A DNA stretch of 64,000 nt from Rhodocyclaceae bacterium. Its GTDB lineage: Bacteria > Pseudomonadota > Gammaproteobacteria > Burkholderiales > Rhodocyclaceae. This document shows, one piece after another, positions 2,930 through 59,013 of this stretch; position 1 is the stretch's first letter, and every line of letters starts with the position of its first letter. The stretch spans positions 1 to 64,000 of the forward strand of contig JAVBYI010000023.1 of NCBI GenBank assembly GCA_030824115.1. The letters are read 5' to 3'. A program made the translations under genes and the position numbers. The notes under the pieces are model-generated. The model had not been told where the DNA came from, searched no databases, and saw nothing but the letters and a program-made list of their open reading frames with translations.

Positions 2930-5197
2930 CTACGCAGCCACCGGCAGGGTATGCCGGGCCATGCTGACGAGCATCGAGACATCGAGGATCAGGGCGACGC
3001 GACCGTCGCCCATGATGGTGGCGCCGGATACGCCGGCAACTTTCCGGTAATTTGATTCGAGACTCTTGATGACGACCTGATGCTGACCGACCATGGCATC
3101 AACGAACAGTGCCGCCTTGGTGCCGTCCGCCTCGAGGATGATCATGATGCCTTCCTCGAACGAGGTAACAGCGCCGGGCACACGGAAGATTTCGTACAAG
3201 GTCACCACCGGCAGATATTCGTCGCGCACCTGGATCAGTCGCTCAACACCGGAGACGCTCTTGATCATGCCGCGTTCAACCTGCAGCGACTCGATGACGT
3301 AGCCGAGCGGGATGATGTAGGTTTCGTTGCCGACGGCGACCGACATGCCATCGAGAATCGCCAACGTCAGCGGCAGCTTGACGGTCATGCGCGTGCCGAC
3401 ACCTTGCAGCGAGTCGATTTCAACCCGGCCGCCCATCGCCGTGATGTTTTTCTTCACCACGTCCATACCGACACCGCGACCAGACACTTCGGTGATCTGG
3501 TCGGCGGTTGAAAACCCCGCCTCAAAAATCAGGCCATAAACTTCCTGATCGGTCATCTGGTCGTGCACGTTGAGGCCGCGCTCTTTGGCCTTGGCGAGAA
3601 TCTTGTTGCGCGGCAGGCCGGCGCCGTCGTCGCCCACTTCAATGACGATGTTGCCGCTCTGATGGTAGGCCGACAAGGTGATCGTGCCAACCGGCTGCTT
3701 GCCTTTCGCGGCACGCTCGTCAGGCATCTCGATGCCATGATCAAGACTGTTGCGGATCAGGTGGGTCAACGGATCGGTGATGCGCTCGATCAGCCCCCGG
3801 TCGAGTTCGGTACTTTCGCCCGAGGTTTTCAGCTCGACCTGCTTGCCAAGTTTCTGCGACAGATCGCGCACGACGCGCGGGAAGCGTGAGAACACCACCG
3901 ACATCGGCATCATGCGGATCGACATCACCGACTCCTGCAGGTCGCGCGTGTTGCGCTCCAACTGGATCAGGCCGTTGTGCAGGCGTTCAAACTCGACCGG
4001 ATCAATCTGCGAAGCCGACTGCGCCAGCATCGCCTGCGTGATGACGAGTTCGCCGATCAGATTGATCAGTTGATCGACCTTGTCGACACCCACGCGAATG
4101 GAGGTATCGGCACCGGGTTTGGCGGCGGCCACCGGCGCAGGGCGCTTGGTGCCAGCCTCTTTGTCTTTGGGCGCTGCAGGCTTTTCTTCGACGACCAGCG
4201 CCACCGTCGGCACGGCGGTGGATGCGGCAGTCGCGGCCACCGGCTCGGGCAAAGGCTCGAAGAAGCCATAGGCATCCTCAGGTGATGTCTCAGGCGCAGG
4301 GGCTGCGGTCTCGGGCAGCGGCTCGAAGAAACCGTAGGCATCGTCTGATGCGGCAGTCCCTGCCGCCTCGCCTACCGGTTCGAAGAAGCCATAGGCCTCA
4401 TCGGCAACCGTCCCCGGTGTCGCACTGTCCGTAAAGAAACCATAGGCGCCATCGGTCGCATCCCCTAATCCGCCGCCTTCATCCAGTGGCGTCACGCGAA
4501 TACTGTCATTACGGGCCACGAATTCAAGCATGCCGCGCAGCAGTTCAGCGTCTTCGACACCGCCCATCTGCAGATGCCAGGGCTGATCAGGGCTGGCAGC
4601 ACGGCCGACGATTCGCACATCGCCTTGCTCGGCCAGTTCGGCCATCAGGTTTTCAAGCGTGGCTTCGGTCGTTGCGGCATCGCCTTCAAGGACGAAGTGG
4701 AGATGAAAACCTTGCTGCAACTCGGCGGCGGGCACGGGAGTCGTCCCGGCAAAAGTCGGCGCTGGCGGGACGGCATTAGCCGGAGTTGAAACCGGCGCAG
4801 CCGCAGCCTCGTTCTCGGTCAGCAAACGCAGGCGCTGGCACACCGCCTTGGCCATGTCGGTATCCGATTCGCCATCGCCCTGATGCGCCGCCAGCATGCC
4901 TTTCAGTACATCGCCGGCATCAAGGAAGGCATCGATCATGTCCTCGCGCAGCTTGAGCTCACCCTTGCGCACCTTGTCGAGCAAGTTCTCGAGGATGTGC
5001 GTGACATCCTGCAAATCGGTAAAACCGAAGGTGCCACTCGACCCCTTGATCGAGTGCGCGGCCCTGAAAATGGCATTCAGCTGCTCGTGATCCGGCTCGT
5101 GCACATCGAGCGTGAGCAGCAGGTTTTCCATATTGGCCAGATGTTCCGCGGTCTCCTCGAAGAAGACCTGGTAGAACTGGCTCATGTCGATGGACAT
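2930..5197 (-). CDS. cheA: Chemotaxis histidine kinase CheA
   Basis: About 755 residues from the ATG at 5197, which has GAGGAGG just upstream; an ATG 120 bp further up lacks such a site. An Hpt domain carries the phospho-acceptor His48 (AAHSIKGSSG). A linker follows, then the dimerisation helices, an HATPase (HLIRNSLDHGIE, GDDGAGLP, GRGVGMDVV) and a C-terminal CheW-like regulatory domain. It autophosphorylates and passes phosphate to CheY. Odd features: the linker carries four copies of a motif like D-x-AYGFFEP (about residues 240-335), and a segment reading PPAPTF encoded by a copy of the dispersed repeat at 4751-4774. The gene lies between cheY and cheW. Confidence 0.96.
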   Translation of the reverse strand: MSIDMSQFYQVFFEETAEHLANMENLLLTLDVHEPDHEQLNAIFRAAHSIKGSSGTFGFTDLQDVTHILENLLDKVRKGELKLREDMIDAFLDAGDVLKGMLAAHQGDGESDTDMAKAVCQRLRLLTENEAAAAPVSTPANAVPPAPTFAGTTPVPAAELQQGFHLHFVLEGDAATTEATLENLMAELAEQGDVRIVGRAASPDQPWHLQMGGVEDAELLRGMLEFVARNDSIRVTPLDEGGGLGDATDGAYGFFTDSATPGTVADEAYGFFEPVGEAAGTAASDDAYGFFEPLPETAAPAPETSPEDAYGFFEPLPEPVAATAASTAVPTVALVVEEKPAAPKDKEAGTKRPAPVAAAKPGADTSIRVGVDKVDQLINLIGELVITQAMLAQSASQIDPVEFERLHNGLIQLERNTRDLQESVMSIRMMPMSVVFSRFPRVVRDLSQKLGKQVELKTSGESTELDRGLIERITDPLTHLIRNSLDHGIEMPDERAAKGKQPVGTITLSAYHQSGNIVIEVGDDGAGLPRNKILAKAKERGLNVHDQMTDQEVYGLIFEAGFSTADQITEVSGRGVGMDVVKKNITAMGGRVEIDSLQGVGTRMTVKLPLTLAILDGMSVAVGNETYIIPLGYVIESLQVERGMIKSVSGVERLIQVRDEYLPVVTLYEIFRVPGAVTSFEEGIMIILEADGTKAALFVDAMVGQHQVVIKSLESNYRKVAGVSGATIMGDGRVALILDVSMLVSMARHTLPVAA
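4751..4774 (+). repeat. Dispersed 24-bp repeat, copy 1 (inside cheA)
   Basis: The core GTCGGCGCTGG is followed by CGGGACGGC. In the cheA frame (minus strand) it encodes the PPAPTF part of the interdomain linker. Confidence 0.8.
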
Positions 5198-5234
5198 GGC
5201 GCCTCCTCGTGAAATCTGTGGTGGTGCGGAGGAA

Positions 5235-5600
5235 TCAGCCGATGACTTTCTTGACGACTTCGACCAGTTTCTGCGGATCAAAGGGCTTGACCAGCCAGCC
5301 GGTGGCGCCGGCAGCACGTCCCTGCTGCTTCATCGCATCCGACGATTCCGTCGTCAGCATCAGGACTGGCGTGGTCTTGTATTGCGGCAATCCGCGCAGA
5401 TTCTTGATCAGCGTCAGGCCGTCCATGCGCGGCATGTTCTGGTCGGTCAGGATCAGATCGAATGTTTTTGCCTTGGCCTTTTCAAGGCCGTCCATGCCAT
5501 CGACGGCCTCGGTCACCTCATAGCCGGAGCTTTTGAGGGTAAAGGTCACCATCTGGCGAATGGAAGCGGAATCGTCGACGGCAAGGATGGTTTTAGCCAT
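5235..5600 (-). CDS. cheY: CheY-like single-domain response regulator
   Basis: This 121-residue protein is a lone receiver domain. The acidic pair is Asp9/Asp10 (ILAVDDSAS), the phospho-acceptor is Asp53 (ILTDQNMPRMDG), and a conserved Lys sits in LVKPFDP. There is no output domain, so it should act at the flagellar switch or as a phosphate sink. It is 38 bp upstream of cheA on the same strand and follows the CheZ-like gene. The exact role of this CheY versus paralogues elsewhere in the genome cannot be judged here. Confidence 0.93.
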   Translation of the reverse strand: MAKTILAVDDSASIRQMVTFTLKSSGYEVTEAVDGMDGLEKAKAKTFDLILTDQNMPRMDGLTLIKNLRGLPQYKTTPVLMLTTESSDAMKQQGRAAGATGWLVKPFDPQKLVEVVKKVIG

Positions 5601-5627
5601 GGGTAAGCTCCTGTGTGCAGGGTAGGT

Positions 5628-6161
5628 TCAAAATAGTTCGATGTCGCCCTGGGTCATTGCCTTCTGGTCGACAGGATTATTGATGGTCTGTGCTTCGATA
5701 TTCTTGAGGGCCGCGATGATCCTACCCTGTTCCTGACGCATGGAGGCAATCGCGCCACGGGCATCATGGCTGCGGGCTTCCTGTTCGAGCGTCGAGCCCA
5801 ACGTATTGAGTTCGCGCATCACACCATCCATCGCGTCGATGCGGCATCCGACATGGCCGAGCAACTGTGACACCATATCCTGGAATTGCAGCGCGGTGAT
5901 CGCTCGGCCGAGGATGTCCCCCGCTTGCTGCGACGACTCGGGCGTGGCGCGCATGTCCCGAGCAGCCATATCCTGAAAACTGACGGTCAGCGCGTCGATT
6001 GCCTCTTGCAACAGGTCTTGCACACTGGCGATCTCACCGCGCGCCGCATTCAATTGGTTGCTGAACTGCAGCGCCATCTCGCGCAACAAGTTGCGAAACT
6101 CCTCCAGGAGCGCCCGCTCGTCTTCGCCGCCGAAGGCCCAAGACTTGTTAAGGACATGCAT
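5628..6161 (-). CDS. CheZ-like chemotaxis protein (putative CheY phosphatase)
   Basis: A predicted all-helical protein of 177 residues in the slot between motB and cheY, where a CheY-modulating gene is expected. The central segment LQFQDMVSQLLGHV resembles the CheZ active-site helix with its catalytic Gln (FQD[LM]). The C-terminus ends acidic and hydrophobic (QGDIELF), comparable in character to the CheZ tail that docks CheY. The N-terminal two thirds could form the long hairpin typical of CheZ. Sequence similarity to enterobacterial CheZ is weak, so the function is inferred. The start is the ATG at 6161, overlapping nothing and 8 bp past the motB stop. Confidence 0.6.
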   Translation of the reverse strand: MHVLNKSWAFGGEDERALLEEFRNLLREMALQFSNQLNAARGEIASVQDLLQEAIDALTVSFQDMAARDMRATPESSQQAGDILGRAITALQFQDMVSQLLGHVGCRIDAMDGVMRELNTLGSTLEQEARSHDARGAIASMRQEQGRIIAALKNIEAQTINNPVDQKAMTQGDIELF

Positions 6162-6169
6162 GGTGCAAC

Positions 6170-7135: not shown

Positions 7136-7138
7136 GAC

Positions 7139-7996: not shown

Positions 7997-8126
7997 GAAC
8001 GACCCCGGGATTGAATTCAGGCAGCGCGGGCATGAGGCGCGCAAACATCCGCAATGATAGCGGCAAATGCGCTGCACGGCACAAATCAAGCATGTCCGAG
8101 CTCACTTGCCACGCCAGACGTACAAA

Positions 8127-8160: not shown

Positions 8161-8193
8161 TCTTCAAGCAGGGAGAGAGAGAACTAAGTGAAC

Positions 8194-11880: not shown

Positions 11881-12558
11881 CTACTCTTCCACCTCGAACA
11901 CCACCGGCAACAACACGGCAAACTGCCGATGACGCAAGGCATCGGGTAGCGCGGTTCGCTCAGCGGCCAGACGCAACATCTCGACTGCCGCCGTATCCAG
12001 TTGGACATGGCCGCTCGACCGCGTCAGTTCGGTCTGGGCAGCGACACCGCTGGCGGCAATACTGATCCGCACTTCCGCCGTTCCAGCCAGCCCGGCACGG
12101 CGTGCGGCGGCTGGATAGCGCCGGTAACGGCGTGCTTCGCTGGCCAAGGCCAGACGATATTGACGCAGGCCAGCCGCATCAGGGGCGCCAAGTTCGGCTG
12201 GTGAGGGCAACGCCACCGAAGGCGCCGCTGCCTCCGTTGCAACCGCCGGCTCACCACCCGCCATGGCGGTGAGCGGTACGGACGCAGGGTTATCAACCGG
12301 CGCGGAATGACTCGACTGCGTGACAATCTGCGGACGCGCAGACGGTACAGTCGCATTGGCCTGCGCAGGAAAAGTCGGCGCTGGCAGGACAGCAGGAGCA
12401 GGCACCGGCGCGCTGCGCAAGCGGGCCAGCAAGCGCTGCGCCGACGGTACACCGGCTTCCCCCTGCGGCAACACCGGCACCAGGGCCAGCAAGACCAACG
12501 CATGCGCACCCAATGACCAGGCCAGCGCATGCCAGGGAAATCCACCGATTCCCCGCAT
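11881..12558 (-). CDS. TonB-like energy transducer
   Basis: About 225 residues from the ATG at 12558; starts further upstream lack a clear ribosome site. There is one N-terminal membrane helix (ALAWSLGAHALVLLALVPVL), a Pro/Ala-rich periplasmic linker, and a C-terminal TonB fold (AGTAEVRISIAASGVAAQ; SGHVQLDTAAVEML). It would carry proton-motive energy to an outer-membrane receptor, but no exbBD or receptor is adjacent. The linker contains PAPTF encoded by a dispersed repeat copy. A second TonB with its own ExbBD is encoded at 59019. Confidence 0.75.
   Translation of the reverse strand: MRGIGGFPWHALAWSLGAHALVLLALVPVLPQGEAGVPSAQRLLARLRSAPVPAPAVLPAPTFPAQANATVPSARPQIVTQSSHSAPVDNPASVPLTAMAGGEPAVATEAAAPSVALPSPAELGAPDAAGLRQYRLALASEARRYRRYPAAARRAGLAGTAEVRISIAASGVAAQTELTRSSGHVQLDTAAVEMLRLAAERTALPDALRHRQFAVLLPVVFEVEE
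12371..12393 (+). repeat. Dispersed 24-bp repeat, copy 2 (inside TonB-like gene)
   Basis: AAAGTCGGCGCTGG followed by CAGGACAGC, one base off the commonest form. On the coding strand it encodes LPAPTF in the proline-rich linker. Confidence 0.75.
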
Positions 12559-13247: not shown

Positions 13248-15221
13248 ATGAAACCCGCCAAAAGCCTCACGGCTTACCGCCCCTATTGGGCCAAACGTTT
13301 CGGCACCGCCCCCTTCCTGCCCATGTCGCGCGCCGACATGGAAGCACTCGGCTGGGACAGTTGCGACGTCATCCTCGTCACCGGCGACGCCTATATCGAC
13401 CACCCGAGCTTCGGCATGGCGCTGGTTGGCCGCCTGCTCGAAGCGCAGGGCTTCCGCGTCGGCCTGATCGTCCAGCCGGACTGGACAGCGGCAGACGACT
13501 TCCGCCGCCTTGGCAAACCGAATCTTTACTTTGGCATCACCGCCGGCAACATGGATTCGATGGTCAACCGCTACACGGCCGACAAGAAAATTCGTTCCGA
13601 CGACGCCTACACCGCCAACGCCGAACCGGGCAAGCGCCCGGATTACGCTGCCACCGTCTATGCCCAACGGGCGCGCGAAGCGTTCAAGGATGTACCCGTC
13701 GTGATTGGCGGCATTGAAGCCTCCCTGCGGCGCATTGCCCATTTCGACTACTGGTCGGAAACCGTCAAGCGCTCGGTGCTGGCCGACAGCAAGGCTGATC
13801 TGCTGCTGTTCGGCAATGCCGAACGCGCCTTGGTTGAGTTAACGCATCGCATTGCCAAAGGCACGCCGATCAGCGAGATTCGCGATTTGCGCGGCAGCGC
13901 CTTCATGGTGCCGACAGGCTGGACGCCCTCACCAAACTGGCACGAAGTCGGCACACGCCACGTGCATGACGACCGCACCCTCACCTACGTGCGCCTGCCG
14001 GCCTACGAAACGGTGAAGGCCGACAAGGTCGCTTACGCCGAAGCCTCTCGGCTGTTTCATCTCGAATCGAACCCCGGCAATGCCCGCGCCCTCGTGCAGC
14101 AGCATGGCAATCGCGACCTTTGGCTGAATCCGCCGCCGCTGCCGCTCAGCACGGCCGAGATGGATCACGTCTATGGCCTGCCCTACGCTCGCGCACCGCA
14201 CCCCAGTTATGGCGAGGCGAAGATTCCCGCGTGGGAGATGATCCGCTTCTCCATCAACATCATGCGCGGCTGCTTTGGCGGCTGCACCTTCTGCTCGATT
14301 ACCGAGCACGAAGGCCGCATCATCCAGAGCCGTTCGGAGGCCTCCATCCTCCATGAGATCGAGGAAATTCGCGACAAGACGCCGGGCTTTACCGGCGTCG
14401 TCTCCGATCTCGGCGGCCCGACCGCCAACATGTATCGCATGGCCTGCAAGGACAGCAACATCGAAGCCGCCTGCCGACGCCTCTCCTGCGTCTATCCCGA
14501 CATCTGCCCGAACCTCGGCACTGACCACAGCGCGCTGATCCATCTGTATCGCAGCGCGCGGCAGGTGCCCGGTGTGAAGCGCATCCTGATCGGCTCGGGT
14601 CTGCGCTACGACCTCGCCGTGCGCTCGCCAGAATACATCAAGGAACTGGTCAGCCACCACGTCGGTGGCTACCTCAAGATCGCGCCCGAGCACACTGAAG
14701 AAGGCCCGCTCGCCAAGATGATGAAGCCGGGCATGGGCAGCTACGAGAAGTTCAAGCGCCTCTTCGAAGCGGCCTCGAAGGCAGCGGGCAAGGAACAGTA
14801 CCTGATTCCCTATTTCATCGCCGCGCATCCGGGCACTACCGACAACGACATGGTCGAACTGGCGCTGTGGCTCAAGCAGAATGGTTTCCGTCTCGATCAG
14901 GTACAAACCTTCCTGCCCACGCCGCTGGCCATCGCTACCGGCATGTGGCATAGCGGCAAGAATCCGCTCAAGCGGGTTTCGAAAGACTCGGAGGAAGTGC
15001 CCGTCGTGCGCGGTGGTCGCCAGCGCAAGTTGCAGAAAGCCTTCCTGCGCTACCACGACCCGAAGAACTGGCCGCTGTTGCGCGAAGCGCTCAAGGCGAT
15101 GGGCCGCGCCGACCTGATCGGCAATGGCAAGCGCCATCTCGTGCCATCATGGCAGCCTTCGGATGAAAAGTCGGCGCTGGCAGGACGGCGTCCGCAGCCA
15201 AGAAGGAAACCCCATGCGTAA
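13248..15221 (+). CDS. ygiQ: YgiQ-family radical SAM protein
   Basis: A protein of 657 residues with the N-terminal YgiQ module ([39 protein letters not shown]) and a radical SAM core. The Fe-S cysteines are Cys342, Cys346 and Cys349 ([18 protein letters not shown]). A C-terminal Lys/Arg-rich tail follows. The reaction is not known for the family. The final 20 residues ([11 protein letters not shown]) are encoded by a dispersed repeat copy just before the stop. Its last 8 bp overlap the start of the RND adaptor gene. Confidence 0.92.
15166..15189 (+). repeat. Dispersed 24-bp repeat, copy 3 (3' end of ygiQ)
   Basis: AAAAGTCGGCGCTGG then CAGGACGGC, a full match. It is read in frame as EKSALAGRR in the YgiQ tail and lies just upstream of the next gene's start. 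Confidence 0.85.
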
Positions 15222-23034: not shown

Positions 23035-24354
23035 TCAGCGTTTCTTTTTGCTCGCTTGCGCATCCAGTGTGCGCAGGTGTTGCAGCTTTTCGCCAATTTT
23101 CTGTTCCAGCCCGCGTGGCGTCGGCTGGTACCAGTCTGTCTTCGGCATGCCTTCGGGAAAGTAGTTCTCACCGGCCGCGTAGGCCTCCGGCTCATCGTGG
23201 GCATAGCGGTATTCCTTGCCGAAGCCCAGTTCCTTCATCAGCTTCGTCGGCGCATTGCGCAGGTGCTCCGGCACTGGGCGGCTGACATCCTTGCCGATGA
23301 ACCGCCGCGCCGCGCCGTAAGCCACATAGGCGGCATTCGACTTGGGTGCTACGGCGAGATACAGCACCGCATTCGCCAGTGCCAGTTCGCCCTCGGGCGA
23401 GCCGAGGCGCTCATAGGTTTCGGCCGCATCCAGCGCGATGCGCAAGGCGCGCGGGTCGGCCAAGCCGATATCTTCACTGGCCATGCGGATGATGCGCCGA
23501 CCGAGATAAAGCGGATCGGCCCCGCCATCGAGCATGCGCGTCAGCCAGTACAGCGCCGCATCGGGTGACGAGCCGCGCACCGACTTGTGCAGCGCCGAGA
23601 TCTGATCGTAGAAGGCATCGCCGCCCTTGTCGAAGCGGCGCAGATCGGACGCCATCGCCTGTTCCAGAAAGTCGGCGCTGACAAGACGGCATCCCGCCGC
23701 GCCTGCGGCCGTACGCAGCGTTTCCAGCACATTCAGCAAGCGCCGCGCATCACCGTCGGCGTAGCCGACGATACGATCCACCGCGTCATCCGCAAAATCC
23801 AGATCGGCAAACGCACGCGACCGGGCGCGCGCAAACAGTTCGTACAACTCCTCCGCCGTCAGCGACTTCAGCACATACACCGCCGCTCGTGAGAGCAACG
23901 CGGAATTCACTTCGAAGGAAGGATTCTCCGTCGTCGCGCCGACAAAGGTCAGCAGGCCCTGCTCGACAAACGGTAGAAAGGCATCCTGCTGTGCCTTGTT
24001 GAAACGGTGTACCTCATCGACGAACAGCAGGGTGCGCTGGCCACTCTGGGCCAGCGTCAGTTCGGCCTGCTCCACCGCCGCGCGAATATCCTTGACGCCG
24101 GAAAACACCGCCGAAAGCGCCAGAAATGCCGCATCAAACGCATCCGCCATCAGCCGCGCCAGCGTGGTCTTGCCCACGCCCGGCGGACCCCACAAAATCA
24201 TCGAATGCGGTGTGCGCGATTCAAACGCCAGGCGCAAGGGCTTGCCCGGCCCGAGCAGGTGTTTCTGCCCGATCACCTCATCCAGCGTGGCGGGGCGCAA
24301 CTGCTCCGCAAGCGGCGCGTGGGGATTGGGTTCTTTGAACAGATCGTCGGACAT
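23035..24354 (-). CDS. rarA: Replication-associated recombination protein A (RarA/MgsA)
   Basis: 439 residues. An AAA+ core has Walker A at 56-63 (GPPGVGKT), Walker B (LLFVDEVHRFNKAQQD) and sensor 1 (GATTENPSFEVN). The C-terminal helical region has ISALHKSVRGSSPDAALYWL, a hallmark of RarA/MgsA/WRNIP1. It acts at stalled replication forks. The segment CRLVSADFLEQ is encoded across a repeat-like sequence at 23668-23690. It belongs to the lolA-rarA-serS neighbourhood, interrupted here by a diguanylate cyclase gene. Confidence 0.96.
   Translation of the reverse strand: MSDDLFKEPNPHAPLAEQLRPATLDEVIGQKHLLGPGKPLRLAFESRTPHSMILWGPPGVGKTTLARLMADAFDAAFLALSAVFSGVKDIRAAVEQAELTLAQSGQRTLLFVDEVHRFNKAQQDAFLPFVEQGLLTFVGATTENPSFEVNSALLSRAAVYVLKSLTAEELYELFARARSRAFADLDFADDAVDRIVGYADGDARRLLNVLETLRTAAGAAGCRLVSADFLEQAMASDLRRFDKGGDAFYDQISALHKSVRGSSPDAALYWLTRMLDGGADPLYLGRRIIRMASEDIGLADPRALRIALDAAETYERLGSPEGELALANAVLYLAVAPKSNAAYVAYGAARRFIGKDVSRPVPEHLRNAPTKLMKELGFGKEYRYAHDEPEAYAAGENYFPEGMPKTDWYQPTPRGLEQKIGEKLQHLRTLDAQASKKKR
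23668..23690 (+). repeat. Dispersed 24-bp repeat, copy 4 (inside rarA, divergent)
   Basis: AAAGTCGGCGCTGA then CAAGACGGC. It has several mismatches to the others and could be a chance or decayed copy. Confidence 0.5.
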
Positions 24355-24368
24355 GTGCGAATGATAAG

Positions 24369-24391
24369 GCCGTCTCGCCAGCGCCGACTTT
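24369..24391 (-). repeat. Dispersed 24-bp repeat, copy 5 (intergenic)
   Basis: GCCGTCTCGCCAGCGCC followed by GACTTT, in reverse orientation, in the 58-bp gap between rarA and the diguanylate cyclase. Confidence 0.8.
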
Positions 24392-24412
24392 GCGGCTGGG
24401 TGATCTACCGGG

Positions 24413-27131: not shown

Positions 27132-27880
27132 ATGACACCGAGCCGCATCCAGCAGATCGACCAGAAACTCCAGCAATGGCGCGCCCAGCATCCGGACGTC
27201 GCCAGCCGTCGTGCCGCCTATCGGGAGAAGGTGCTGGACTTCACGCTGAACTCGATGGCGCTGGAAAACGAACCAGTGGATCGGACGCGGGTGCAGGCGC
27301 TACGGACTCGACCCGCCCGCTAGACGCCACGCGCGAATTCGCCAGCGCGGCGGGTTCGCTGACATATACCGAGGTTTCCGAACAGCTAGCAGCAAGGGTT
27401 GCAGATTGCATCGACGCGCTGCTCGACGCCGATCCTGCCGCCATTGCGATTTCGTCTGAGTGGTTGCGCGATATTCACCGCCGCATCGCCGCCGAGTTGT
27501 TCCCGGACTGGGCTGGACGTTGGCGTACTACCGAGGTTCAGGTCGGCACGCATCTCCCACCACCACCGCACGATGTGCCGGTGTATGTAAAAAACTTCTG
27601 TCTTGATCTGGAAGTACGCCTGCGCCACATAGGGGATGCGCAATCCGTGGCCGAACTACTGGCCTGGGTAGATTGGCGCTTCCAGTGGATTCATCCGTTC
27701 AAGGATTTCAACGGTCGCGTTGGGCGCATTCTGTTGGTGGCGCTTGCCTACAAACTGGGGCTACCTCCCATCGATCCGGCTGAAGGCGCAGCCCAGCGCG
27801 AGCGTTATTTTCTAGCTTTGCGTGCCGCAGATGCCGGGAACCTTGCGGCGCTGACGGGAATCTGGCTACATCGTCTGTAA
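27132..27880 (+). pseudogene. Frameshifted Fic-domain protein (class II AMPylase-like)
   Basis: Two frames make one Fic protein. The N-terminal part starts at the ATG 27132 (MTPSRIQQIDQKLQQWRA) and includes the inhibitory helix motif SMALEN, matching S-x3-E-N of class II Fic proteins; it stops at 27323. The remainder continues in another frame from about 27310 (LDATREFASAAGSLTYTEVS) and contains the core HPFKDFNGRVGR, where Phe replaces the usual Gly of HPFx2GNGRx2R. One indel near 27300-27320 explains the break. It is either an inactivated gene or a sequencing error. Fic enzymes transfer AMP to protein hydroxyls. It is inserted between lolA and ftsK. Confidence 0.75.
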
Positions 27881-27902
27881 AAGTCGGCGCTGGCAGGACG
27901 GC
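27879..27902 (+). repeat. Dispersed 24-bp repeat, copy 6 (at Fic stop codon)
   Basis: AAAAGTCGGCGCTGG then CAGGACGGC, a full match that overlaps the TAA stop of the Fic frame and lies before the ftsK stop. Confidence 0.85.
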
Positions 27903-27917
27903 GCCCTGCCGCTCGCT

Positions 27918-31338: not shown

Positions 31339-31878
31339 ATGGCCAACAGGGCGCTGGATGAACAGTCGCGCGCCCTGTTCCGGGAGGCGGTGGCCGATGC
31401 CGTGCCGCTCTCGATCGACCGGATGCATCACGAACCGCCGCCCCCGCCCGCCATCCCGCGCAGCAAGGCACGCGACGAACGCGCCGCGCTGGACGAATCG
31501 CTTTCTGACGTCGATCCGCTGCATCTCGCCCTGGAAGGCGGCGATGAAGCGGTCTATCTCAAGCCCGGCATGGCCCCCAAGGTGCTCAAGGACCTGCGGC
31601 GCGGGCGCTGGGTGGTGCAGGCCCACCTCGACCTGCACGGCATGCACCGCGACGAAGCGCGCCAGCAGGTTGCACTGTTTCTCGCCGAATGTGTGGCGCA
31701 CCGTCAGCGCTGCGTGCGCATCGTGCATGGCAAGGGACATGGCTCACCGGGGCGGATACCAGTGCTCAAGCGATTGGTCATCAGCTGGCTAGCGCAGCGT
31801 CAGGAAGTGCTTGCTTACTGCCAGGCCCGCACGGTTGAAGGGGGGGCAGGAGCGGTTATCGTGCTATTGGCGGGATAA
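31339..31878 (+). CDS. Smr-domain protein
   Basis: 179 residues. The C-terminal half is an Smr (small MutS-related) domain: LDLHGMHRDEARQQVALFL, then VRIVHGKGHGS and a terminal AGAVIVLLAG. The N-terminal part is Pro- and Arg-rich (HHEPPPPPAIPRSKARDERA). Stand-alone Smr proteins act as endonucleases on nucleic acids, for example in ribosome rescue. It starts 4 bp after trxB and is probably co-transcribed. Its last 81 bp are duplicated, in diverged form, at 36751-36831. Confidence 0.88.
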   Translation: MANRALDEQSRALFREAVADAVPLSIDRMHHEPPPPPAIPRSKARDERAALDESLSDVDPLHLALEGGDEAVYLKPGMAPKVLKDLRRGRWVVQAHLDLHGMHRDEARQQVALFLAECVAHRQRCVRIVHGKGHGSPGRIPVLKRLVISWLAQRQEVLAYCQARTVEGGAGAVIVLLAG

Positions 31879-31905
31879 GGTGCCGTCCTGCCAGCGCCGA
31901 CATTT
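31798..31905 (+). repeat. Left copy of a 108-bp direct repeat bracketing an apparent insertion
   Basis: It spans the last 27 codons (with stop) of the Smr gene and the dispersed repeat after it. The matching copy is at 36751-36858. By eye the two are roughly 85% identical, with most differences at third codon positions. Confidence 0.85.
31882..31905 (-). repeat. Dispersed 24-bp repeat, copy 7 (after Smr stop)
   Basis: GCCGTCCTGCCAGCGCC then GACATTT, a full match beginning 4 bp past the stop codon. Confidence 0.9.
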
Positions 31906-36705: not shown

Positions 36706-36730
36706 TGCGATGGGCGTTTAGCACTACAAG

Positions 36731-36751
36731 AGTCGGCGCTGACGGGACGGC
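36731..36751 (+). repeat. Dispersed 24-bp repeat, copy 8 (right end of insertion)
   Basis: AGTCGGCGCTGACGGGACGGC, truncated by about 3 bp at its A-rich end. It abuts the duplicated Smr end directly and faces the opposite way to copy 9. Confidence 0.75.
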
Positions 36752-36831
36752 GTCAGGAAGTACTTGCTTACTGACAGGCCCTCACGGTTGAGGGGCGCGC
36801 GGGGGCCGTCATCGTACTGTTAGCGGGATAA
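36751..36831 (+). pseudogene. Duplicated 3' end of an Smr-domain gene
   Basis: 27 codons corresponding to the end of the Smr gene at 31798-31878, reading RQEVLAY, an in-frame TGA, then QALTVEGRAGAVIVLLAG and TAA. There is no start codon. Most changes relative to the intact gene are synonymous, so it looks like the end of a diverged allele rather than a recent copy. With the repeat that follows it forms the right arm (36751-36858) of the bracket around 31.9-36.7 kb. Confidence 0.8.
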
Positions 36832-36834
36832 GGT

Positions 36835-36858
36835 GCCGTCTCCCCAGCGCCGACATTT
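36835..36858 (-). repeat. Dispersed 24-bp repeat, copy 9
   Basis: GCCGTCTCCCCAGCGCC then GACATTT. It has the same position relative to the Smr stop codon as copy 7. Confidence 0.8.
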
Positions 36859-40300: not shown

Positions 40301-40303
40301 AGT

Positions 40304-40327
40304 GCCGTCCTGCCAGCGCCGACATTT
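40304..40327 (-). repeat. Dispersed 24-bp repeat, copy 10 (between convergent genes)
   Basis: GCCGTCCTGCCAGCGCC then GACATTT, a full match starting 4 bp after the ABC operon stop and touching the stop of the convergent outer-membrane factor gene. Confidence 0.9.
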
Positions 40328-48590: not shown

Positions 48591-51020
48591 ATGATGCGTT
48601 ACCGCGTTGTCCACCGCCTGCCGCAACGCATTCGCCTGCTGGTGCCGCCGCTCGTCCGCAACGAGGAAAAGTGTTACCTGCTTGAAATTCTGCTACGCAA
48701 GCATCCGGCCATTACGCATGTGCGTGTGGTCGCCGAGATTGCCTCGGTCACGATCCAGTACGACCCGGCCAAACTGCCCGAACATCGCCTGCTGGCGCTG
48801 GCCAATGCGGTGATCGGCAACCTCGCTGCTGCACCGAACAAGGCCGTCTCGCCAGCGCCGACATTTGTAGCCGAAGGTCCATCGCAGGAATGCCTCGCCG
48901 CCGTCGAAGGCATGACCTGTGCCTCCTGCGCCGCACTGATCGAACTCTCGCTCAAGCGCGACCCGCGCGTCGAGAACGTCGCCGTCAATTACGCCGCCGA
49001 AACCGTCACCGTCAAAGGCTATCTCTCGAAAGACGAACTGTTCGCCACGGTTAGCAAGCTCGGCTATCAGGCACGGCCGATGGACACACTGGCACAGCGC
49101 CGCCTGCTGGTCGAGCGTGAAAAGGCGCGACTGGAAACCGCCAAGCGCAAACTGATGCTGGCCGCCGCCCTGACCGCGCCGGTGATGGTTTCCGGCATGC
49201 TGATGCACCGCTCGCCGCTGCTGCGCCTGATGGAACTCGCGCTCTCCACCTATGTCATCGCCGGCCCCGGCAACGACATCTTCAAGAAAGCCTGGGCGCT
49301 TGCGCAGCAACGCGAAGCCAACATGGATTCGCTGATTGCCATGGGCGCCGGCGCGGCCTTCCTCTACAGCATCCCCGGCGTGCTGCGCCTGGAGCACCAC
49401 GTTTACTTCGAGTCGGCGGCGGCCATCATCGCCTTCGTGCTCGGCGGCCGCTACATGGAAGAACGGGCCAAAGGAAAAGCGTCGGAAGCGATTCGCAAAC
49501 TGATCGAACTGCAGCCCGATACGGCAATCCGCGTGACCGACAGCGGCGATGAAACCGTCAGCATCGACGACGTGCAACTCGGCGACATCCTGCGCGTACG
49601 GCCCGGCGACAAGGTGCCGACCGACGGTATCGTGCTGGCAGGCAGTTCCGCCATCGACGAATCGCTGCTCACCGGCGAACCACTGCCGGTGGCGAAAGCA
49701 CTCGGCGACAAGGTCGTCGGTGGCACGCTGAATGGCAATGGCGGTTTCACGCTCAAGGTCACGGCCATCGGCACCGATACCGTGCTCTCTGGCATCGTCA
49801 AGCTGGTCGACCACGCGCAGGGCAGCAAGCTGCCGGTGCAGAAACTCGCCGACCGCATCTCGGCGCGCTTCGTGCCTGCGGTCGGCGCCGTTGCCGCCAC
49901 CACCTTCGCCGGCTGGCTGCTGGCTGGTCATCCGCTCGCGCGTTCGCTCTCGCACGCCGTCGCCGTGCTGCTGATCGCCTGCCCCTGCGCACTCGGGCTG
50001 GCCACGCCCACCGCCATCATGGTCGGCACCGGCCAGGCGGCGCGGCGCGGCATCTACATTCGCAACGGCGAAGCGCTCGAAACCGCTGCGACGCTCGATA
50101 CCTTGGTGTTCGACAAGACCGGCACAATCACCGCCGGCAAGCCGGTGGTGACCGATTTCCTACCCATAGCCGGACAGGACGAGAACACGCTGCTGGCGCT
50201 CGTCGCCAGTACCGAGCAGCACTCCGAACACTTCCTCGCCCGTGCGATCATCGCTTATTGCCAAGCGAGGGCCGTCCCGCCAGCGCCGACATTTGATTTC
50301 GTCGCCACGCCCGGCCACGGCGTGCAGGCCGGCTACGACGGCGGCACGCTGCGCATCGGCAATGCCAGCTTCCTCGAAGCCGCCGGCATCGACTGCCGCG
50401 CCCAACTGGCACAGGCAGACGCGCTTGCCGAGCAAGGCAAGACGCCGGTCTTCGTCGCGCTCGACCAAAGCTGCATCGCGCTCTTCGCCATCGCCGACGC
50501 ACCGCGCGACGGTGCGAAGGATGCCATTGCCCTGCTCCATCAGCTCGGGCTGAAAACCATCATGTGCACTGGCGATGTCGAAGCCGCCGCGCGGCATGTG
50601 GCACACGAGGTCGGCATCGACGAAGTGATTGCGCGCGCCACACCCGCCGACAAGCTCGCGCTGATCGAGCGCCTGAAGCGCGAGGGCAGGAAAGTCGGCA
50701 TGATCGGCGACGGCATCAACGATGCCCCCGCGCTCGCCGCGGCGGCGGTCGGCTTCGCCATCGGCGGTGGCGCCGACATCGCGGTGGAAGCCGCCGACGT
50801 CACGCTGGTCGGCGGCGACATCGCCCGCGTCTCCGGTGGCATCGAACTCTCGCGCCGCACCATGGCCATCGTCCGCCAGAACCTGTTCTGGGCGCTCGGC
50901 TACAACATCGTCGCCATCCCCTTCGCGGCGGCCGGTCGACTCAATCCGATGATCGCCGCCGCCGCGATGGCGATGAGCTCGGTCTCGGTGGTCACCAACT
51001 CGCTGCGCCTGCAGAAGTAA
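48591..51020 (+). CDS. copA: P1B-type heavy-metal (copper-type) transporting ATPase
   Basis: 809 residues. The N-terminal 85 form a CxxC-less HMA-like domain, followed by a classical HMA domain with Cys110/Cys113 ([10 protein letters not shown]). The membrane CPC motif (Cys464/Cys466, [15 protein letters not shown]) marks Cu(I)-type transport. The phosphorylated Asp508 is in [10 protein letters not shown], the actuator TGEP is present, and the hinge is [15 protein letters not shown]. It pumps metal out of the cytoplasm, for detoxification or for loading exported cuproenzymes; the neighbouring thioredoxin and COG2836 genes favour the latter. Two dispersed repeats lie in frame within it. Confidence 0.92.
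48843..48866 (-). repeat. Dispersed 24-bp repeat, copy 11 (inside the P1B-ATPase gene)
   Basis: GCCGTCTCGCCAGCGCC then GACATTT. It reads in frame as AVSPAPTF between the two N-terminal domains. Confidence 0.85.
50271..50294 (-). repeat. Dispersed 24-bp repeat, copy 12 (inside the P1B-ATPase gene)
   Basis: GCCGTCCCGCCAGCGCC then GACATTT. It reads in frame as AVPPAPTF in the nucleotide-binding domain. Confidence 0.85.
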
Positions 51021-51720: not shown

Positions 51721-51744
51721 AAAAGTCGGCGCTGGCGGGATGGC
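51721..51744 (+). repeat. Dispersed 24-bp repeat, copy 13 (after stop codon)
   Basis: AAAAGTCGGCGCTGG then CGGGATGGC, 2 bp past the COG2836 gene's stop. Confidence 0.85.
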
Positions 51745-51805
51745 GCATATTAATCTTTCGCCGCTCATTGATCACGATCAAACAACTCAAGTCTTTGTAA
51801 GCACC

Positions 51806-54204: not shown

Positions 54205-54209
54205 TCGCC

Positions 54210-56306
54210 GTGTCGCTGCTTACCTTCAGACTGGTGCCCGCCTTCTGTGGCGGGTTGCTGGTCGCCGGTGCCGTCTTCGCCCAAAGCGAAAAATCGCTCG
54301 ACACGATCACCGTCACCGCGACGCTTGATGACGTCGCCGAGCGCCGCGAGTCCGCCGCGCAAAAGACCATCGTCACGAAACAGGACATCGAAGCGATGGG
54401 CGCGCTGACCATCAGCGATGTGATGGGCAAGCTGCCGGGCGTCGATGCCAGTACGCCGGGCGCCGACGGCTCGATGGCGCTACGTTCCCGTGGCATGGTG
54501 CGCGACTCCGTCCAGATATTGGTGGATGGCGAGCGGGTGCACCAGAATGCCCGTGTCGCTCAGGGCATTGTCGGTCGACTGCCCGCAACGGAACTGCTGC
54601 GGGTCGAGATCATGCGCGGATCTTCAGCGGAGAGTGGCGGTAGCGCACCGCTTACTGTAAATCTGGTGCTCGCCAAGCCCATGTCGCGCAAGTCCACCGC
54701 CTTCAAGGCGGCAACCGGTTTCCTTGGTGATCGGCTTATCGCGCAAACCAACATCACGAAGGGCGGTGGCGACAAGGACTTCTCCTGGTTGCTGCCGGTG
54801 ACGCTGAACCACCACGAAATGCCGTCCGCGCGGCAAGCCAGTCGGCGAGACAGTACCGGCCTGCGGCAGGAGGACAGCGAGCAGGGTGACCGCAGCACCG
54901 AGGAATTCGTGATCTCGCCGCGCCTGATCTGGAAGTCGGGAAAGGACAACCTGACGCTAAATCCGGTGTTCTTTCGTTCCTTCGGCGCCAGCGACAACGA
55001 TTTCGGGCGCAGCGATCTGGGGGTCCCGGCCAGCAGTTCCACGCGCACGGATAAGGGAAAGAGCCGCAATGCCTTCAACCGCATGCGTGCCGATGGCGAG
55101 ATATTCCGGCAGGGCGTGAAATATTCCGGGCGGCTGGCGTTTTCCGATGGTGAGCGCAATGCCGACACGCAACGCAGCGGGATGACCGCTGGTGGTATTG
55201 CCACAGTCTCCGATGAAGAGACCCGCCGCAAGGAGCGGGATCTTGGCGGTGCCTTGCGTGCCGACTGGAGTAAGGGTCCGCATGTGCTGGCCGCTGCTGT
55301 CGAGCATTCAGGCCATCGACGTGATGAACGCCAGTCGAACAGCGGCCTCGGGGTCGCCGAGACACATGATGGTTGGGACCGGCAATCGAGCGTCTGGCTA
55401 CAGGACGAGTGGCGCCTCGCCGCCGCCACGACGCTGACGCTGGGATTGCGTGGCGAATCGATCCGTTACGCCATCGACGGAATCGGCCAGCGCCACCGAA
55501 AACTGCTGCCATCGCTCGCCGTGAAGTGGGAGCCGCTCGAACAGTGGGTCGTCCGTTCCTCTCTGGGTGCCGGCATCAAGCCGCCGCGACTGGACGAACT
55601 CACCAATCAGCCGGTGTACAGCGTCAATGCCAACACACCGCTGGAACCCGACCGACGCGGCAATCCAAATCTGCACCCGGAGCGCAGCATCAATTTCGAG
55701 GCCGTGCTCGAACGCTATCTGCCGGGCGAGGCGGGCGTGCTTGGCGCCAACTTTTATCTGCGGCATACCGAGAACTTCACCGAGCGACGCGTGCAACTGG
55801 AAGGTGCGCGCTGGGTGGATCGACCCTACAACGAAGGATCGGCGCGTCACTGGGGCCTTGAACTCGACGGCAAGCTGCGCACTGACAGCCTCGGCTGGCA
55901 CGGCGCCACTTTCCGCACCCATCTCACCGTACCACGCAGTCGTGTAGACGACGAGCGCCTCGGCATGCGCCGTGCCGCGCGCGATCAACCCCGCTACATC
56001 CTGAGTGGCGGCTACGACCAGACGCTGGGCTCCCGCAGTTTCGGCATGTCGTTCCAGCACAGCGGGCGCGTACTGACCCATGTGTCCGGCGAGCAGTCTT
56101 TCGAGACCCGGCGGCGTACGGTGGTCGACGCCTATGCCCTGCAGAAGCTGAATCAGGAACTCAACCTGCGCCTGTCGCTGCAAAACCTGTTCCGCGCCGA
56201 TACGCGGCGGCAGATGGATGCCTTCGCGCCGGGGAGCATCTGGTTCCTGAGCAGTGAGGACAGAAGTGCGCGCACCGTGCTGCTCTCGCTGGAAGGAAAG
56301 TGGTGA
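54210..56306 (+). CDS. TonB-dependent outer-membrane receptor 2 (divergent type)
   Basis: 698 residues from a GTG at 54210, 5 bp after receptor 1. It has a signal peptide (GGLLVAGAVFAQ), a TonB box-like start (LDTITVTATL) and a plug with TISDVMGKLPGVDASTPGAD and LLRVEIMRGSSAESGGSAP. The barrel ends TVLLSLEGKW. Compared with canonical plugs, the segment after GSSAE is shortened and lacks the usual GGxINI. The second receptor may handle a different form of the same substrate. It is coupled to the next gene. Confidence 0.85.
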   Translation: MSLLTFRLVPAFCGGLLVAGAVFAQSEKSLDTITVTATLDDVAERRESAAQKTIVTKQDIEAMGALTISDVMGKLPGVDASTPGADGSMALRSRGMVRDSVQILVDGERVHQNARVAQGIVGRLPATELLRVEIMRGSSAESGGSAPLTVNLVLAKPMSRKSTAFKAATGFLGDRLIAQTNITKGGGDKDFSWLLPVTLNHHEMPSARQASRRDSTGLRQEDSEQGDRSTEEFVISPRLIWKSGKDNLTLNPVFFRSFGASDNDFGRSDLGVPASSSTRTDKGKSRNAFNRMRADGEIFRQGVKYSGRLAFSDGERNADTQRSGMTAGGIATVSDEETRRKERDLGGALRADWSKGPHVLAAAVEHSGHRRDERQSNSGLGVAETHDGWDRQSSVWLQDEWRLAAATTLTLGLRGESIRYAIDGIGQRHRKLLPSLAVKWEPLEQWVVRSSLGAGIKPPRLDELTNQPVYSVNANTPLEPDRRGNPNLHPERSINFEAVLERYLPGEAGVLGANFYLRHTENFTERRVQLEGARWVDRPYNEGSARHWGLELDGKLRTDSLGWHGATFRTHLTVPRSRVDDERLGMRRAARDQPRYILSGGYDQTLGSRSFGMSFQHSGRVLTHVSGEQSFETRRRTVVDAYALQKLNQELNLRLSLQNLFRADTRRQMDAFAPGSIWFLSSEDRSARTVLLSLEGKW

Positions 56307-56332
56307 TGCACTGTTTATCTGATGGAGAAAAA

Positions 56333-57235
56333 ATGAAGGCCTTATTCCTGATTCTGTCGCTAACGTCGCTCGGGCTTGCGACGCCAACCCTTGCCCAGCA
56401 CGATCATGGTGCGGCGCCCGCAGCCAGCGCTGCTTCCGCCCCGCCGGGGCGGCCGGCCGGTCGCCCGCCAGCCCGTGACTGGACAGGGCAGCCGCTGCTG
56501 CTCGGCAAGGCCGAGCGGGGCAGCCGCACCACCGCCATGCTGACCCCGCGTGGCCTGGCAGCAACAAGCGTCGCCGTGTATGCCTCCGCAGGGCCGGCCG
56601 AACGCCGCAAGCTTGACTATCCGGTGGGAGCGGAAGGCGCAAAGATCGAATCCGTCGCACCGAAAATCGGCAATTACCATTGGCTCGTCGCACGCGAAGA
56701 AAGCGGCGATACGGTGCGTGTCGCCACGACGGCCTGGTATTTCGGCGAGCCCGGCGACTCGCCAACGGACATGCTCGCTCTGCCGAAGCATGAACTCGAG
56801 ATCGTGCCCGCGCCGCTGCCGCGCGAACACCGCAGCTATCGCGAGGCCGAGAAATGGCGCTTCCTGGTCCGCCTCAACGGGCAACCGCTGGCCGGGCAGA
56901 CTGTCGGCATGGAAACCGAGCTAGGCAGCCGTTCCGCGGCAGTGTCCGATGTCTCAGGCCATGCAACGATTGTTTTCCCCCGGGACTTCAAGCCGGCATC
57001 CGGGGCGGATGAAGAAAGCAACGACCCGCGCAGCCGTGCGCGATTCGTGCTGTTCGCCGAGAAGGAAGCAGACGGCAAACGTTATCTGACAACGTTCAAT
57101 TACACCTACGCCCAGGACCCCGACCGCAACCGCAGCCTCACCTGGGGGGTGGCCTTCGGCCTCCTCGGTATGGTGGCAGCCACGCCGTTATTGCGGCGGC
57201 GGCAACAGAATGAAGGAGCCAACGGCCATGCTTAA
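56333..57235 (+). CDS. Exported His-containing protein with C-terminal membrane anchor (DUF4198-like)
   Basis: 300 residues from the ATG at 56333, with GGAG upstream. The signal peptide (LILSLTSLGLATPTLA) is followed by a short metal-binding-looking start (QHDHGAA) and a Pro/Ala-rich linker. A beta-sandwich-like domain follows (KWRFLVRLNGQPLAGQTVGM), similar to periplasmic nickel/copper uptake proteins. It ends with one helix and RRRQQ. It probably receives metal in the periplasm after the receptors and passes it to the membrane proteins encoded next. The assignment is by resemblance and context. Confidence 0.65.
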   Translation: MKALFLILSLTSLGLATPTLAQHDHGAAPAASAASAPPGRPAGRPPARDWTGQPLLLGKAERGSRTTAMLTPRGLAATSVAVYASAGPAERRKLDYPVGAEGAKIESVAPKIGNYHWLVAREESGDTVRVATTAWYFGEPGDSPTDMLALPKHELEIVPAPLPREHRSYREAEKWRFLVRLNGQPLAGQTVGMETELGSRSAAVSDVSGHATIVFPRDFKPASGADEESNDPRSRARFVLFAEKEADGKRYLTTFNYTYAQDPDRNRSLTWGVAFGLLGMVAATPLLRRRQQNEGANGHA

Positions 57236-58298
57236 GCATTTCTTCCCCACGCTTTCCCGTTTCCGTTTTGCGGTGCAGGTGCTCATGCTGTTCGTCACCG
57301 TCTATGGCAGCGTCATCGTCGGCCACTACGCCGCCGACAAGATTACCGGCGCCCTGCCGGCGCTGTCCTGCGCCTATGACCAGATGAATGGCAGCTATTG
57401 CATCCTGGTGCCGACCCAACATCAGGTGCATCATCGCATCGGTCAGGCAATGGTCAAGGCGCAGCAACTGACCTTCCAGATGGTGCTGCCGCTACTGATG
57501 ACATTCCTCACCTTCTTCGCCTTCTTCTTCGTCATCGGCAAAGCCTTCTGCGGCTGGGTCTGCCCGCTGGGCACCCTTCAGGAATGGATCGGAAAAATCG
57601 GGCGGCGCTTCGGCATCGGTCTGCGCCGCTTCGATAAAGGGGATCTAGGCGAAGTGAAGCGCGTGCGGCCGTTCAAATGGCTGCTGCTGCTGGGTCTGGT
57701 ATTTCTGCTGCCGCTGCTGACGGGCCTGGGAGTGACGCCGCATTCCCTGGGCAATCCCTACTGCGACATCTGTCCCTCGCGCGTTGCCACCACCTTGCTG
57801 ACCGGCAACACCGAGGAACTTGCCCTGCGGCTGGGCGACGACTGGAAGTTTGGCCTGGGTGCGGCCGCCAATACGCTGATCGGCTTCATGTTGATCGGCG
57901 GTCTGGCGATGCGCCAGCCCTTTTGCCGCATCTGCCCGTTGCTGGCGCTCAATGCGCTATTCCAGCGCCTGTCGCCACTGCGTCTGGCCAAGCCGTCACG
58001 CGACAAGTGCGGTTCCTGCCATATCTGCACCGAGGCCTGCCCGATGGACATCCCGGAAATCTCATCGGAAAGCGGGCGCAAGGCATTTCACGAGGACTGC
58101 ACGCTGTGCGGCCGGTGCGCGGAATACTGTCCGCAGGACGGCGTGATCCGGCTCAAGTGGGGACCATTCGCGTTGTTTTCCTCCAGCCGCGAGTATTACA
58201 AGGCAAAAGTGAAGGGCGAGCTGCCGGACGGTACGGTGAAACCGGTCAGGTTCGTGAAGAACGCGGCCAAGCCTGCGGTGGATGCAGCCGATGCTTGA
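57228..58298 (+). CDS. NapH/CcoG-like membrane polyferredoxin
   Basis: 356 residues from the ATG at 57228 (GGAG upstream). About five membrane helices are present. Two membrane-edge CxxxCP motifs (CGWVCPLGTLQEW; CRICPLLALNALF) and the segment YCDICPSR lie between helices. The C-terminal cytoplasmic domain has two 4Fe-4S motifs (CGSCHICTEACP; CTLCGRCAEYCP). It resembles NapH, NosR and CcoG. CcoG is a cupric reductase, so reduction of imported metal is a plausible job here. It overlaps the previous gene by 8 bp. Confidence 0.85.
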   Translation: MLKHFFPTLSRFRFAVQVLMLFVTVYGSVIVGHYAADKITGALPALSCAYDQMNGSYCILVPTQHQVHHRIGQAMVKAQQLTFQMVLPLLMTFLTFFAFFFVIGKAFCGWVCPLGTLQEWIGKIGRRFGIGLRRFDKGDLGEVKRVRPFKWLLLLGLVFLLPLLTGLGVTPHSLGNPYCDICPSRVATTLLTGNTEELALRLGDDWKFGLGAAANTLIGFMLIGGLAMRQPFCRICPLLALNALFQRLSPLRLAKPSRDKCGSCHICTEACPMDIPEISSESGRKAFHEDCTLCGRCAEYCPQDGVIRLKWGPFALFSSSREYYKAKVKGELPDGTVKPVRFVKNAAKPAVDAADA

Positions 58299-59013
58299 GG
58301 AACTCGCCGCCGGACAAGTCACGCTGGCCACCGTCTGGCTGCTCGGCGTGTCGATGGGGCTGACCGCCTGCACCGTCACCTGCCTGCCATTCATGGGGAC
58401 GTGGGCGCTGGGGCGCGCCAGCGGGCAACGCGAAGCTTTTGTTCACACCGGCGTGTTTCTCGCCGGCCGGGTGACCACCTACACCCTGTTGGCGGCATTG
58501 TCCGGTGCCGTGGGTTTTGGGCTGGCGCAAGCGCTTGGCGGCCCGCTGGGTAACACCCTCATCGGCGCGGCGAGCGTGCTTGCCGGCCTTTGGCTTCTGG
58601 CCAAGCCAACGGGAAAAGCTTGCAGTGCCGTCCTGCCAGCAGGGAGGCCGTCAGGCCGGAAGCGGCCCGAAGAGGCTGCGCCGACTTTTGCACCGGTGCA
58701 GGTGCATCGTCGCAAGGCCGACAGCCTGCCGCCGCTGTTTCTTGGCGCAGCACTCTCGCTGACCCCCTGCATGCCGCTGGCTTCCCTGCTGGCACTGGCC
58801 GCGAACGCGGGGAGCGCCACCGAAGGGGCGTTCTTCGGCCTGGCCTTCGGCCTTGGCGCGGCGATGACACCGATGCTGGTGCTGGTGCCGCTGGCTGGCC
58901 GGCTGGGACGCGAACTGCGTGCAGGCCGCGCCTGGCTGTCGCGCTGGCTGCTCTGGAGCGCTGCGGCCGTCCTGATCCTGCTGGGTCTGCGGCGCATCCT
59001 GCTGGCCTTTTAA
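58291..59013 (+). CDS. DsbD/CcdA-like membrane protein
   Basis: About 240 residues; the ATG at 58291 overlaps the previous stop (a start at 58282 is possible). Six helices in two halves carry the family's paired cysteines (LTACTVTCLPFMGTW; LSLTPCMPLASLL). Such proteins carry electrons across the membrane for thiol, heme or copper-site chemistry. The cytoplasmic loop between the halves is expanded by a dispersed repeat copy that is itself split by 37 bp (58627-58689). It lies between the polyferredoxin and tonB. Confidence 0.75.
   Translation: MLEELAAGQVTLATVWLLGVSMGLTACTVTCLPFMGTWALGRASGQREAFVHTGVFLAGRVTTYTLLAALSGAVGFGLAQALGGPLGNTLIGAASVLAGLWLLAKPTGKACSAVLPAGRPSGRKRPEEAAPTFAPVQVHRRKADSLPPLFLGAALSLTPCMPLASLLALAANAGSATEGAFFGLAFGLGAAMTPMLVLVPLAGRLGRELRAGRAWLSRWLLWSAAAVLILLGLRRILLAF
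58627..58689 (-). repeat. Dispersed 24-bp repeat, copy 14, split by a 37-bp insert
   Basis: The left part GCCGTCCTGCCAGC (58627-58640) and right part GCGCCGACTTTT (58678-58689) together form the full repeat. The 37 bp between them are GC-rich and unrelated. The whole lies in frame within a loop of the DsbD-like protein (ending AAPTF). Confidence 0.75.

Follow-up and report, generated by a model that had tools for sequence, protein, structure and literature searches.

A 25-bp motif with several dialects as a putative DNA uptake sequence in Sulfuritalea-like bacteria

We analyzed a 64,000-nucleotide stretch of DNA from a Rhodocyclaceae bacterium (GenBank assembly GCA_030824115.1, contig JAVBYI010000023.1, positions 1 to 64,000; hereafter, the window) and a short repeat that recurs in it. 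The repeat is a 25-bp element with the consensus AAAWGTCGGCGCTGGCRRGACGGCA and, judging from our analysis of its copies, is very likely a genus-wide DNA uptake sequence, that is, a "self" tag for the preferential uptake of related DNA. A sequence-only reading of the window had listed 14 places for this repeat, and we found the motif at every one of them, as 13 intact 25-bp copies and one copy interrupted by 39 bp. The copies and their gene contexts are as follows.

4751-4775, plus strand: motif copy, antisense in a CheA-like gene, in the linker between the Hpt and dimerisation domains; peptide AVPPAPTF
12370-12394, plus strand: motif copy, antisense in a TonB-like gene, upstream of the C-terminal domain
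15166-15190, plus strand: motif copy, sense, toward the C-terminal end of a radical-SAM (DUF3362) gene; peptide KSALAGR
23667-23691, plus strand: motif copy, antisense in a RarA/MgsA-like gene
24368-24392, minus strand: motif copy, intergenic
27879-27903, plus strand: motif copy, overlapping a predicted stop codon
31881-31905, minus strand: motif copy, 2 bp past a predicted stop codon
36728-36752, plus strand: motif copy, intergenic, 22 bp past a predicted stop codon
36834-36858, minus strand: motif copy, intergenic, in the opposite orientation to 36728-36752
40303-40327, minus strand: motif copy between converging genes, with a 2-bp overlap with a predicted stop codon
48842-48866, minus strand: motif copy in a copper-type P-ATPase gene, in the stretch separating two HMA domains; present, decayed, or absent in orthologs
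50270-50294, minus strand: motif copy in the same copper-type P-ATPase gene, in the hydrolase domain
51721-51745, plus strand: motif copy, 2 bp past a predicted stop codon
58626-58689, minus strand: split motif copy, with in-frame halves inside a DsbD_2-domain gene

In the split copy, 15 bp at 58626-58640 are followed by a 39-bp insert and then by GCCGACTTTT at 58680-58689, and the halves still encode AVLPA and APTF, 13 residues apart. The exact 11-bp core GTCGGCGCTGG was found at 11 of the 14 places, with one mismatch at 23668 and 36731 and the split at 58627. When one mismatch was allowed, the core occurred 18 times in the window (five of these were not copies of the full motif), compared with a mean of 4.0 and a maximum of 10 in 100 shuffled windows, in agreement with the earlier statement that the recurrence was far beyond chance. 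Two direct repeats of 109 nt, 85% alike, occupy positions 31797-31905 and 36750-36858, with a motif copy ending each. Among known RNA families, tRNA was the only one found in the window.

We then sampled 464 kb of the same genome (the window plus 20 stretches of 20 kb) and identified 121 copies with up to three mismatches, 13 of them in the window, compared with one match for a reversed control. Copies with 0, 1, 2, and 3 mismatches numbered 55, 32, 23, and 11, respectively (control: 0, 0, 0, and 1). A logo of the 121 copies showed an element with sharp edges, near-random flanking columns, and no unit longer than 25 bp. The consensus holds ∼38 bits of information and is very tight within one genome, and the objection that the repeat was too variable for a standard uptake sequence did not survive. 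In the entire genome (3.0 Mb), we counted 676 copies with up to two mismatches, 342 on the forward strand and 334 on the reverse strand, and none of the reversed control; the motif is therefore neither confined to the window nor present at a frequency near expectation.

Copies per 20-kb stretch were distributed in a Poisson-like manner (mean of 5.4 and variance of 5.0 over the 20 stretches). Such an even chromosomal spread, together with the conserved sequence and the presence of the motif in most genomes of the genus, would also suit a binding site for an intracellular protein that organizes, segregates, or recombines the chromosome, in the manner of FtsK-orienting polar sequences (KOPS), Chi, parS, or a nucleoid-associated protein site. 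However, there was no replichore polarity in the single-contig genome G028 (the best bias was 14, matched by 1,556 of 2,000 shuffles; the test used the 100 listed of its 110 dialect 12-mers), and in the stretches of the window's own genome the strand of the copies did not follow GC skew (44:44 and 17:16). Moreover, ∼13 bits would suffice to mark 676 sites, far fewer than the ∼38 bits present, and one genome of the genus lacks the motif, which is also scarce in a low-GC stretch. We consider an intracellular binding site unlikely, and a Chi- or KOPS-like polarity was not seen in either the replichore or the GC-skew comparison. The low-GC stretch (L036, G000:C1 250001-270000; GC of 0.50) looks foreign and carries one copy in 20 kb instead of the mean of 5.4; this single case is what one would expect if foreign DNA lacks the tag.

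Next, we examined where the copies fall relative to genes, using a simple purpose-made gene finder that gave a coding fraction of 91%. Of the 121 copies, 80 (66%) were wholly inside predicted genes, 10 overlapped a gene end, and 31 were between genes. By chance, 89% would fall inside genes; intergenic gaps are therefore enriched, with 34% of copies not wholly in genes as opposed to the 11% expected. Within genes, one shared frame accounted for 34 of the 44 sense copies (p = 9e-10) and 24 of the 36 antisense copies (p = 6e-5), and the favored frames yield the peptides KVGAGxTA or AVxPAPTF. Since the consensus reads without a stop codon in any frame, the frame bias reflects tolerated peptides.

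To follow the origin of the copies, we compared orthologous sites. In the region of the copper ATPase gene, ten same-genus genomes were aligned over neighboring blocks, and eight of the genomes reach 50270-50294. The copy there was kept (up to two mismatches) in G001, G004, G006, G013, and G017, was decayed in G003 with a 12-nt length difference, was replaced by unrelated sequence of equal length in G016, and was absent from G005. A larger set covered 64 motif sites in 175 comparisons, after 10 rows from duplicate loci (L001-L030) had been dropped; the rows are not independent, as several query sites are orthologous to one another. The motif was kept in 100 of the 175 comparisons, 57 of them at equal spacing. 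Among the 75 that lacked it, the length difference was 0 in 16, 1-6 nt in 14, -25 ± 2 nt in one, -31 to -37 nt in nine (two sites), and another value in 35, with no peak corresponding to the insertion of a 25-nt unit.

We also compared proteins that contain the motif with solved homologs, in a test modeled on the one described for the uptake signal sequence (USS) in section 7 of PMC1626085. Eight proteins were tried, and all six that could be aligned lacked a motif-sized insertion; for the two further queries, a homolog at the cut-off was not found. The motif region was gap-free in RarA compared with structure 3pvs (a 2-residue gap lay four residues before the motif), in the copper ATPase compared with two copper-ATPase structures (for the copy at 50270-50294; the second copy falls outside the aligned part), and in prolyl-tRNA synthetase. 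Methionine synthase showed a 2-residue gap directly after the motif, the homolog of a thiamine enzyme was four residues shorter at the motif rather than longer, and a succinyltransferase linker was gap-free but poorly aligned. At the level of sequence comparison, these alignments show that copies at alignable protein sites arose by substitution, not by insertion.

These results bear on the possibility that the motif is a very small mobile element copied by a transposase, such as a miniature inverted-repeat transposable element (MITE) or a repetitive extragenic palindromic (REP) sequence. REP sequences, the related bacterial interspersed mosaic elements (BIMEs), and MITEs have a palindrome or terminal inverted repeats and show unit-sized insertion polymorphism. 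The motif resembles them in being short, dispersed, present in many copies, and enriched between genes, and its sharp edges, very tight consensus, and the two sites that differ by 31-37 nt between species would fit a mobile element as well. However, it contains neither a palindrome nor terminal inverted repeats, and both strands of one consensus copy folded no better than shuffles, consistent with the earlier view that the repeat is not self-complementary and is unlike REP/BIME. Two thirds of the copies lie inside predicted genes even though 25 is not divisible by three, a unit-sized insertion signature is missing from the orthologous DNA, the protein alignments are gap-free inside the motif, and other dialects occupy orthologous sites (see below). 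A mobile element is thus very improbable. A hairpin or terminator role was likewise rejected, given the folding result and the finding of a single closely spaced inverted pair of copies (36728/36834) in the window.

We next searched for the motif in other genomes. With the consensus of the window's own dialect, 17 of 18 other genomes of the same genus contained 168-697 copies, and the remaining one, G005, contained none. In 18 other genomes of the family, G019 had 504 copies and G026 had 638, with six or fewer in the other 16, while 24 genomes from other families of the order had five or fewer. Among 30 genomes reached via named records (30 of 80 loci listed), 24 held 225-697 copies and six held 1-11. 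The titles of the 24 high-count records include Sulfuritalea, Sulfurisoma, Rhodocyclaceae bacterium, one Propionivibrio dicarboxylicus, and one Gammaproteobacteria bacterium; NCBI taxonomy places Sulfuritalea in the Sterolibacteriaceae, Nitrosomonadales.

A search with a single consensus undercounts dialects: in G028, the own-dialect consensus gave three matches and a dialect-neutral pattern (AAAGTCNGN5GN4ACGG) gave 308. With the neutral pattern, 35 of the 249 family genomes had at least 50 copies (controls, five or fewer), and the carriers span nine genera (g1, g2, g9, g11, g47, g62, g70, g88, and g90), of which g9, g47, g62, and g90 are each represented by one genome. In a scan of 399 genomes of the order with a similar pattern, counts of at least 50 occurred only inside the family (4 of 13 genomes), and the maximum among the 386 genomes outside was 18, in G339. 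These 18 matches in G339, the genome of L066, are in part own-dialect-like and in part g11-like, and could result from either transfer or contamination. In the motif-poor genome G123, two stretches (L310 and L311; G123:C1 1456001-1476000 and 1486001-1506000) gave four clear copies in ∼50 kb, and a duplicated segment accounts for two of these. L311 also has long near-identical repeats, and L310 is in part 75%-87% identical to L066, a Casimicrobiaceae record; the motif may label horizontally transferred DNA in this genome.

Across the nine sampled genera, the ends of the motif (AAAGTC-like and ACGGY/ACGCC) were kept and the middles differed. The dialects read AAAAGTCGGYGCTGGCGRGACGGCG in G026, RARAGTCGGCGCTGGYGMYACGGYG in G019, RAAAGTCAGTCNCNSCRRSACGGCG in G028, AAAAGTCGGCGCTGGCGNNACGGCGA in G079, AAAAGTCGGCGCTGGYGANACGGYG in G187, and, by eye and approximately, AAAGTCAGYCNTNRYGGTACGCC in G188; logos outside the window's genus were built from 7-24 copies each, and the g47 dialect is ill-defined (three seeds in 160 kb). 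The 12-mer GAAAAGTCAGTC occurred 57 + 53 times on the two strands of G028 (control, 0) and 0-1 times in five other genomes. At one orthologous site, two genera carried two dialects at equal length. Stretches L173 and L184-L186 of G001 contain the middle variants CTGGC and GCTYC side by side, and this genome seems as if in transition between dialects.

We then compared the motif with known uptake sequences. PMC12616744 (2025) names Neisseriaceae and Pasteurellaceae as the only families known to have self-specific uptake, with motifs of 9-12 nt; it describes dialects of the DNA uptake sequence (DUS) between related species, with ComP as the known receptor, and two dialects of the USS, with a 9-nt core, in Gammaproteobacteria. 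Our motif is like the DUS in its hundreds to thousands of copies, equal strands, and dialects between related species, and unlike it in length (25 bp compared with 10-12) and in that the receptor here is putative. According to section 7 of PMC1626085, 65% of Haemophilus influenzae USS copies lie in genes, where they arise by substitution and not by insertion, and the same paper describes an anomalously strong consensus. The tight consensus, the share of copies in genes (66% compared with 65%), the substitution origin, and the dialects are all shared with the USS, in contrast to the length of the core and the Gammaproteobacterial hosts.

Applied to family f44, which we infer to be that of Neisseria, the same kind of search recovered the known DUS, likewise balanced between strands: the DUS 10-mer GCCGTCTGAA occurred 2,160 + 2,125, 1,655 + 1,643, 932 + 931, and 135 + 112 times in four f44 genomes. 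In the 399-genome scan, the reversed control gave 32 matches in G455 and 20-26 in two further f44 genomes; because the reversed pattern contains GNCTGAAA and f44 genomes are rich in GCCGTCTGAA, we attribute these matches to the known DUS. Neisseria belongs to the Betaproteobacteria. Sulfuritalea does too in the NCBI taxonomy, a further likeness to DUS bearers. The DUS 10-mer was not enriched in the window's family, with 1-8 copies in each of six genomes counted and, in the window's own genome, seven (compared with 11 in the reversed control), and neither were the USS words AAGTGCGGT and ACAAGCGGT in the 464 kb (three and two copies, compared with 6 and 17 in the control). The 3' end of the motif on the reverse strand, TGCCGTC, is also part of the Neisseria AT-DUS, ATGCCGTCTGAA, given in PMC3630211 as AT-GCCGTCTGAA; the sharing is possibly chance, or possibly a sign of a related receptor family.

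ComEC, DprA, and minor-pilin families were present in the window's genome and in most others. A ComEC match was obtained in 55 of 61 genomes searched, including the window's own, and a DprA-family match in 16 of 16 (15 over the cut-off), again including the window's own; the ComP_DUS pilin family (PF16732) was found in 53 of 61 genomes, irrespective of the motif, and GspH was examined in eight. As ComEC and ComP_DUS are about as common without the motif, no receptor is singled out; by gene presence, none of the ComEC, ComP_DUS, and DprA families distinguished genomes with the motif from those without it.

The motif could instead be the signal by which a gene-transfer agent, a phage, or a conjugative system packages or transfers host DNA, as such a signal would, through biased transfer, likewise spread a self-marker. 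However, the exact 20-mer was carried by 63 viral-contig stretches in IMG/VR, three of them twice, and copies in the window's own genome are evenly spread rather than clustered, and we regard such a signal as extremely improbable. We also rejected a phage origin of the motif, as the 63 viral stretches carry the 20-mer mostly once each.

Several observations weigh against an uptake sequence. The similar frequency of ComEC and ComP_DUS pilins in motif-free relatives is one. G005, of the same genus, had no copies with either its genus motif or the neutral pattern, yet has ComEC and DprA; it either lost an uptake-motif system or never possessed one. Among motif-bearing genomes, G019 (504 copies, 99% complete) had a DprA match only below the cut-off. 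A ComEC match was missing in G018 (364 copies), and a ComP_DUS match in G012 and G015; these three are drafts that are 76%-83% complete. Insertion or deletion may have acted at some sites, as 45 of the 75 motif-lacking comparisons differ by more than 6 nt. With 25 bp, the motif is also about twice as long as the known uptake motifs of 9-12 nt; the earlier remark that it is too long correctly sets it apart from the DUS and USS but fails as an objection to an uptake sequence. Finally, a literature search for Sulfuritalea and natural transformation found no uptake experiment. The titles and beginnings of abstracts of the papers listed by further searches did not mention this group, although most subscription papers were outside this search and absence from print is not shown. 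A k-mer enrichment on 59-80 kb each of the motif-free relatives G005 (59 kb), G023, G036, and G033 gave nothing convincing as an uptake motif of their own; in G033, it picked up a local tandem repeat.

On balance, the abundance on both strands, the tight consensus, the placement in genes, the substitution origin, the dialects, and the presence of ComEC and DprA argue for the DNA uptake sequence, a role that the sequence-only reading had called conceivable and that fits how the copies are distributed, how they lie relative to genes, and how they arose. A pilin-like receptor at the cell surface, part of the type IV pilus/competence machinery, would bind the motif, and the motif would raise DNA uptake. 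Point mutation at tolerant positions, such as linkers, tails, and intergenic gaps, would create the copies, which would be favored because motif-bearing fragments are taken up more often; biased uptake and recombination (molecular drive) could in this way have multiplied and homogenized them. When the receptor's taste changes, the copies would drift together into new dialects. In all probability, this is a third family with an uptake watermark, whose ends are nearly constant and whose middle is dialect-specific across nine sampled genera; the watermark is unrelated in sequence to the DUS and USS and would be read by a putative receptor.

If true, uptake specificity evolves repeatedly, also in free-living environmental bacteria. 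A third case, with several dialects and with both draft and single-contig genomes, would serve as an independent replicate for long-open questions, namely, why uptake specificity evolves, what it requires of a receptor, and how dialects shift. The motif could be used as a marker of gene flow between species. Our reading predicts natural competence in Sulfuritalea-like bacteria and, if correct, transformation could be used to engineer them.

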